Below, piece by piece: positions 47,961-49,568 of a stretch of 61,403 nt of DNA (the first letter of the stretch is position 1; every line of letters begins with the position of its first letter). The notes beneath the pieces were generated by a model, which saw nothing but the letters and a program-made list of their open reading frames with translations, had not been told where the DNA came from and did no database searches. The DNA lies in assembly GCA_012728235.1 (NCBI GenBank), contig JAAYFL010000016.1:71341-132743 (forward strand), in the 5' to 3' direction. This DNA is from Synergistaceae bacterium (GTDB lineage: Bacteria > Synergistota > Synergistia > Synergistales > Synergistaceae). The translations under genes and the position numbers were made by a program.

Positions 47961-49568
47961 ATGGCAAAGTATGTTTTTGTTACAGGTGGGGTCGTTTCAT
48001 CTCTGGGGAAGGGGATAACTTCAGCATCGTTAGGAACCTTGCTTAAAAGAAGATGGTTCAATGTAAGTATAATGAAGATGGATCCCTACATTAACGTTGA
48101 TGCTGGAACGATGAGTCCTTTCCAACATGGGGAGGTATTTGTAACTTGGGATGGAGCACAGACAGATCTTGATTTAGGGCATTATGAACGTTTTATTGAC
48201 GAAAATATTTCTGGAGTTAATAGTTGTACGACAGGTAAGGTTTATTCCTCTGTCATACACCGTGAACGTCAAGGGGGATATAGTGGTGGAACAGTTCAGG
48301 TTATTCCACATATAACAAATGAAATACAAAATCGCATATTAGCCGTAGGAGAAGATAAGGACATAGTAATAGCAGAAATTGGTGGAACAGTGGGAGATAT
48401 TGAGGGATTACCCTATCTTGAAGCAATAAGACAGTTGCCACAAAGAATAGGGAGAGAAAATATACTTTACTGCCATGTGACTCTGGTACCATATGTTGCT
48501 GCATCAGGAGAATTAAAAACAAAACCTACACAGCACAGCGTGAACGAGCTAAGGAGAATTGGAATTCAACCAGATATAATAGTCTGTCGTTCTCAATTTC
48601 ATGTAAACGCAGAGCTTAGGGAAAAAATAGGATTATATTGTACTGTGTCGCCTGATTGTGTATTTGAAGCAAAAGATACAAGCTCAATATATCAAATGCC
48701 ATTTGAACTAAATAAACAAAAGTTCGACACTACTGTTTTAAAAAAATTAAAATTAAACGCAATAAAAGAACCGGATATGCAAGATTGGCGTGAATTTTTA
48801 GACAAATTAAAATCGCTAGATAAAGAATTAAATGTTGCGTTAGTAGGGAAATATACTGAAAATAAAGATGCTTATTTAAGTGTAAATGAGGCTCTTATTC
48901 ATGCCGGGATAGTTAACAGCATAAAAGTGAATATTCACCCTGTTGCAGCAGAAGATTTAGAAATAAAATCTCCAGACTATTTTTTTGATAAAATAGATGC
49001 TATTGTCGTACCTGGAGGCTTTGGTTTAAGAGGAGTAGAAGGAATGATTGAAGCAGCCAAATATGCCAGAGAAAATGATATTCCTTATTTTGGATTGTCT
49101 CTTGGTATGCAAGTTGCTGCAATAGAATTTGCACGCAATGTTTTAGGATTAAAAGATGCAAATAGTGTTGAAATGGCAGAAGAAACAAAAAATGCAATTA
49201 TATGTTCAAAGGGAGAAAATAATAATATAGAAAATTTAACTGAAACTTCGCGCTTAGGATCGTTTCCATGTAAACTGATAGCAGGCTCAAAATCGTCAGA
49301 AATATATGGAAAAGAAATGGTAAGCGAACGTCATCGTCATCGTTTTGAATTTAATAATGAGTATATAGATTTATTTGAAAAAAATGGTATGAAAGTTGCA
49401 GGAGTCTGTCCAGATGGGAATCACGTGGAAATAATAGAGAATACAAATAATACTTGGATAATAGGTGTTCAGTTCCATCCTGAATTTTTGTCCAGACCGG
49501 TAAGACCACATCCATTATTTATTGATTTTATTTCCGCAGCAATAAGAAAAAAAATAAAAAAGTTTTAA
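47961..49568 (+). CDS. pyrG: CTP synthase with Cys-to-Ser change in the glutaminase site
   Basis: CTP synthase aminates UTP to CTP using ammonia from glutamine. The synthase domain is intact: [59 protein letters not shown]. In the C-terminal class I GATase domain the His and Glu are present (VQFHPEF), but the nucleophile motif, normally GxCLGMQ, reads FGLSLGMQ. Residue 380, equivalent to E. coli Cys379, is Ser (TCT, 49098-49100). If real, the enzyme should not hydrolyse glutamine and would rely on free ammonia. ATG 47961 has AAAGGAG 8 bases upstream. 535 residues. Confidence 0.96.

Follow-up and report, generated by a model that had tools for sequence, protein, structure and literature searches.

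The CTP synthase (PyrG) encoded in the window, a stretch of 61,403 nucleotides on contig 16 of a Synergistaceae MAG (G000), has serine where the glutaminase domain should carry its nucleophilic cysteine. The nucleophile is lost from four of the four nucleotide-synthesis amidotransferases found in this genome (serine in PyrG, glycine in GuaA, serine in PurQ, and Cys1 to Ser in PurF). We put the probability at about 0.85 that the PyrG serine is real, that its glutaminase is inactive, and that PurF, PurQ, GuaA, and PyrG are all fed by ammonia in the G000 lineage. A broader reading also seems probable to us: that one bacterium has given up glutamine as the nitrogen donor for the whole of nucleotide synthesis, with PurF, PurL/PurQ, GuaA, and PyrG using free ammonia and carbamoyl phosphate arising without CarAB, and that some relatives have gone part of the same way independently.

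The pyrG gene (47961..49568, plus strand) encodes 535 amino acids, begins with ATG 3' of an AAAGGAG ribosome-binding site, and ends with TAA. A genome search found it as the only pyrG in G000, a fragmented assembly of 1.57 Mb with 96% completeness and 2.4% estimated contamination. The translation scores 753 bits against TIGR00337 (cut-off 463) and has the order of domains expected of a CTP synthase, a CTP_synth_N synthase domain and, after it, a class I glutamine amidotransferase (GATase) domain, both above curated cut-offs. The synthase (ammonia ligase) domain (47967..48755, plus strand; PF06418, 401.9 bits) keeps 92 of 95 near-invariant positions, the departures being G33W, E68Q, and F227Y. 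The GATase (glutaminase) domain (48867..49535, plus strand; PF00117, 130.9 bits) keeps its fold, lacks the nucleophile, and is predicted to be catalytically dead.

In the assembly, the codon at 49098..49100 (plus strand) is TCT, read as serine within the frame F-G-L-S-L-G-M-Q, and in an alignment with the E. coli enzyme this serine falls exactly on Cys379. The initial annotation had placed a serine here, one base away from TGT, and both statements are borne out; TGT is the codon found in G001, a relative of the same genus whose PyrG is 80% identical. That annotation had also described the remainder of the GATase domain as conserved and the synthase domain as well conserved. For the GATase domain, this holds for the triad His515-Pro-Glu517 (49476..49484, plus strand, in VQFHPEF), for the oxyanion strand and lid L11 (49011..49046, plus strand) with the PGGFGxRGVEG loop, and for Gln383, Glu403, and Arg470. 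It does not hold for the near-invariant Gly436 and Gly437, which have become TE, one of the two changes being common to G001. The description of the synthase domain likewise stands apart from the three substitutions named above. PyrG of G000 thus has the His/Glu and oxyanion loop of a glutamine-hydrolysing class I GATase but not the cysteine of its G-x-C-x-G motif, and it has the features of a former amidotransferase of the CPS1 kind, in which the GATase fold is kept, the nucleophile is lost, and the synthetase is intact.

The GATase domain of G000 PyrG shows a mild excess of change: its ratio is 2.58 against 1.79, which places it 15th of 59 branches in the PyrG tree. Given this mild excess and the three odd synthase residues, pyrG by itself would not prove relaxed selection. 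Strong relaxed selection on this domain was dropped as a proof, the excess being neither large nor distinctive; the mild acceleration is consistent with a recent loss, without proving it.

Our survey of PyrG covered 151 Synergistota sequences and 70 from other phyla that reach the Cys379 column. The cysteine is kept in 148 of the former and in all 70 of the latter. The three exceptions are all Synergistaceae: G000 with serine and G002 and G017 with glycine. Beside C379G, the G002 enzyme has lost the catalytic histidine (H515L) and reads PSG for PGG, a change that it shares with G017. In G006 and G024, the cysteine is present, but PGGFGxRGVEG has become PGGAEHKNLNG, the catalytic histidine is glutamine, and ERHRHR is ERHSRH. 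On the PyrG tree, these lesions lie in at least three separate places, with G000 beside the intact G001, G002 with G006 and G024, and G017 elsewhere; G002 and the G006/G024 pair are neighbours, and their lesions are different. From these separate placements, the predicted loss of PyrG glutaminase is rare yet repeated within the Synergistaceae. A lineage-wide trait is ruled out, as G001 of the same genus keeps its GATase cysteine. The initial annotation had set a cysteine in all relatives against its own reading; most relatives do have it, but in several lineages the glutaminase appears to be lost, through lesions that differ among them. In another family of Synergistota, many members have HGE, HSE, HAE, or HCE in place of the HPE of PyrG, with the triad His and Glu kept (L139, L144, L145, L191-L248).

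A genome-wide survey of G000 by family searches extended the observation to the other amidotransferases, and the weightiest evidence comes from there, beyond the window. GuaA (G000:C113:6143-7657; L388:6095-7657, plus strand) has glycine for the catalytic cysteine; compared with the family, GICYGMQ has become GIGYGMT and the oxyanion SGGP has become TGDM. The GuaA of G001 also has glycine (AVGSGMQ). In the GuaA tree, the ratio of GATase to synthetase branch lengths is 6.35 for G000 and 6.38 for G001, the highest of the terminal branches, against 2.27 for the whole tree. PurQ (G000:C16:39735-40373; L327:7667-8389, minus strand) has serine for the catalytic cysteine in LLGISNGFQ. The GISNGFQ of G000 (codon AGC) corresponds to GIANGFQ in G001 (alanine, codon GCT) and to GICNGFQ in 38 other PurQ or PurQ-like domains. 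The PurF of G000 (L327:2956-4341, minus strand) begins MSGIFG and has also lost Arg73 (to Ser) and Asn101 (to Asp) of the glutamine pocket, while its PRPP loop, DDSIVRGTT, is intact.

Searching G000 with the class I GATase model returned PyrG and GuaA as the sole PF00117 proteins; with PurQ, all three are predicted to be dead, and no spare class I GATase beyond them was found by the family searches. GlmS retains its cysteine (MCGIMG), so the loss is selective, and HisH retains its cysteine in relatives. G000 also encodes a type III-like glutamine synthetase, from which we take it that glutamine is made for other uses and has not itself been lost. PyrG, GuaA, PurQ, and PurF of G000 all score above NCBIfam equivalog cut-offs and are accordingly named as ordinary glutamine-dependent enzymes. 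G000, being a MAG, may lack a few genes or contain a few from other organisms. The PyrG change is, judging from the sequences, one of a set larger than the initial annotation stated. Its proposal that glutamine hydrolysis was lost and free ammonia needed gains support, by inference, from the missing nucleophiles of GuaA, PurQ, and PurF and from the independent losses in PyrG.

Two pieces of guaA elsewhere in G000 (contigs C133 and C124; L392:3-140, L393:2419-2553) encode C-terminal tails of 45-46 amino acids. They lie at the ends of contigs or close to them, next to genes that resemble mobilisation and transposase genes, and neither is a second complete GuaA. By eye, an AIPR-type phage-resistance-like gene lies just downstream of guaA (L388:7692-9530). 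Judging from these neighbours, integration may take place at the 3' end of guaA.

In fourteen Synergistaceae genomes, a Cys1 copy and a Ser1 copy of PurF are encoded a short distance apart within the pur region (L359-L378, L344, L310/L325, L320/L326). Every Ser1 copy has Asn101 changed to Asp. G001 has such a pair, and G000 has the Ser1 copy alone. The single PurF of other genera is intact in nine genomes, has Gly1 in G017, and is badly degenerate in G006 and G024. The arrangement of the tandem pair is that of the archaeal PurF' of Crenarchaeota and of Methanocorpusculum (Mlab_0150, with Ser), a cysteine-less PurF paralogue near purF, for which the proposed role is that of a PRPP aminotransferase dependent on ammonia (PMC3261824). 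The G000 protein resembles PurF' in lacking Cys1, in its intact PRPP loop, and in its position between purC and purM. It differs in its company: the archaeal protein, whose role is only proposed, accompanies an intact PurF, as does the Ser1 copy in the 14 relatives including G001, whereas G000 keeps the Ser1 copy without one.

On contig 16 of G000, the pur genes lie together in a single run (purS, Q, L, C, F, M, N, H, D), in which Q, L, F, M, and D were confirmed by NCBIfam and purS was assigned by position and sequence without an NCBIfam match. Since the cluster is otherwise complete, its enzymes are presumably in use. The pyrB, pyrC, and pyrF genes are present (L385:7961-11048, G000:C16), and together with the pur cluster and the 92 of 95 conserved synthase residues of PyrG they indicate that these genes are not simply pseudogenes. 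Neither CarA nor CarB was found by family searches in G000 or G001. With pyrB, pyrC, and pyrF present and carAB absent, carbamoyl phosphate must have another source in G000, and perhaps carbamate kinase or arginine breakdown supplies it.

Different lesions occur in other lineages of the family. GuaA of G002 has 425 amino acids owing to a deletion that takes out most of the GATase domain, and the GuaA proteins of G006 and G024 (329 and 326 amino acids) have no GATase domain. PurF lacks the cysteine in G006 and G024, where the start is a degenerate MGGFFG, and in G017 (Gly1). CarB occurs without a detectable CarA in G002 (L394), G003 (L395), G006 (L379/L396), and G024 (L380); the G002 CarB has just 939 amino acids, the C-terminal part of the model being missing. 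Losses in PyrG and GuaA coincide, with both in four genomes, one alone in one genome each, and neither in 34 (p = 0.0003); counted by genus, which corrects partly for kinship, the Fisher p is 0.004. G006 and G024 have a long single-chain PurL with an open frame of 1234 amino acids (L279/L280, L322/L323, L328/L329), and it is possible that these two gained PurF, the long PurL, and GuaA horizontally, in an already ammonia-dependent form, perhaps from other gut anaerobes. A GuaA of 344 amino acids without the GATase domain, resembling that of G006, was also seen in G034 (contig C76, L330), a bin with 7% estimated contamination.

From the substitutions, we infer that these glutaminases have lost activity, that ammonia is used in vivo, and that an ammonium-rich life is the cause. 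PyrG of G000 would amidate UTP in its intact synthase domain independently of glutamine, with free NH3/NH4+ entering at the GAT domain and passing along the ammonia tunnel already there. With PurF, PurQ (serving PurL), GuaA, and PyrG lacking the cysteine and CarAB absent, the nitrogen of the nucleotides would come from ammonia, and the glutaminase modules would be dead remnants. Excess ammonia could plausibly arise from amino-acid fermentation, which fits the known lifestyle of the Synergistaceae. The ammonium transporter is uninformative on ammonium-rich life: G001 has one, G000 has none, and neither do most Synergistaceae, for which reason its absence was rejected as a marker.

Characterized enzymes behave as this mechanism would require. 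The lid mutant G352P of E. coli CTP synthase has no activity with glutamine and nearly full activity with NH4Cl; the proposed way in for exogenous NH3 is through the GAT domain (PMC9138612). CTP synthase inactivated with DON still uses NH4+ (PMC11211670), and replacement of the PurF cysteine by Ser or Ala in E. coli abolishes the use of glutamine and preserves that of ammonia (PMC3261824). GMP synthetases accept external ammonia (PMC10526850).

The serine could have been caused by a sequencing or assembly error, TGT having been read as TCT in the gene for an ordinary glutamine-dependent enzyme. The MAG is fragmented, cysteine is one base away, and the sole relative of the same genus has TGT. 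The three other nucleophiles are missing from G000 by different codons, however (AGC in PurQ, glycine in GuaA, and serine with pocket losses in PurF), and both Gly436 and Gly437 of PyrG are changed, one of them as in G001, while PyrG losses recur independently in the family. A single base error cannot explain the whole set; as the whole story it is ruled out by the predicted death of GuaA, PurQ, and PurF, and we consider an error at this codon highly improbable. Serine acts as the nucleophile in other hydrolases, and the G000 enzyme might still hydrolyse glutamine with it, perhaps slowly, given that the enzyme keeps His515, Glu517, and the residues that bind glutamine. Against this stand the E. 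coli PurF, in which the change of Cys to Ser ends glutamine use (PMC3261824), and the CPS1 line, which lost the cysteine and is ammonia-only (PMC7657897). The glycine of G000 GuaA cannot be a nucleophile, and triad positions in other lineages are occupied by Gly, Leu, or Gln. A working serine nucleophile is for these reasons very unlikely.

Drift in a small genome could also have eroded the domains, with ammonia delivered in trans by a separate, dedicated glutaminase and not by the environment. Genomes with a dead PyrG are indeed small among those at least 90% complete: they measure 1.3-1.6 Mb, where the median is 2.3 (p = 0.001, a value that ignores relatedness). On the other side, the family searches turned up no spare class I GATase subunit in G000, where the two PF00117 proteins and PurQ are all apparently dead. 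The synthase domains have been retained, as has the pur cluster, and the cysteine is kept in GlmS and, among relatives, in HisH. We regard this explanation as unlikely. That pyrG itself is decaying, with CTP obtained by salvage of cytidine or cytosine, would fit the changes at G33, E68, and F227, but the gene is full-length and single-copy, all other near-invariant synthase positions are unchanged, and pyrB, pyrC, and pyrF accompany it; we find this scarcely credible. The preferred reading remains that the G000 amidotransferases are supplied with free ammonia.

Parts of this picture are already known. Vertebrate CPS1 has, like G000 PyrG, kept a class I GATase domain whose cysteine is lost, and it works on free ammonia in a compartment rich in it (PMC7657897, PMC4655335). 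The resemblance is one of kind, as homology is limited to the GATase fold. CPS1 is one animal enzyme of the urea cycle under NAG allostery, whereas in G000 PyrG, PurQ, GuaA, and PurF are affected jointly in one bacterium, with no allosteric replacement known. Compared with the glutamine-hydrolysing CTP synthase (TIGR00337), G000 PyrG has the same domains, length, synthase residues, His/Glu, oxyanion loop, and score class and differs in having Ser for Cys379 and in the changes at Gly436 and Gly437. Single-domain NadE and the GMP synthetase subunits that consist of the ATP-PPase only are amide ligases that use free ammonia (PMC3376133, PMC10526850), and the GuaA proteins of G006 and G024 are similar to these. 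NadE without a glutaminase is thought to be ancestral, in contrast to the Synergistaceae, whose glutaminases would have been lost secondarily. Loss of the GATase cysteine with a switch to ammonia, as in CPS1, and a cysteine-less PurF, as in the archaea, have precedents; the present case resembles them but would be a shift of the whole pathway. A literature search, with most subscription journals outside its scope, returned no report of a natural CTP synthase lacking the nucleophile or of a genome in which all nucleotide amidotransferases are dead, and no paper on Synergistetes in that context.

Standard teaching makes glutamine the universal nitrogen donor in the synthesis of purines, GMP, and CTP and regards the use of ammonia as a curiosity of in vitro work. 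Curated models still label the G000 proteins as glutamine-hydrolysing, so the trait is hidden by annotation. If the preferred reading is right, control of nucleotide synthesis by glutamine is predicted to be lost in this organism, GTP activation of CTP synthase to be altered or absent, and these steps to be naturally resistant to the glutamine analogues DON, acivicin, and azaserine. The question of PurF' function would gain a concrete test in G000, whose sole PurF has no cysteine. A pathway retained with every amidotransferase found in it apparently dead would amount to a natural experiment on what glutaminase modules are for, the suggested answer being life at low ammonia. The dependence of nucleotide synthesis on glutamine would then be dispensable in ammonium-rich niches, and within the Synergistaceae its loss would be a recurrent event.
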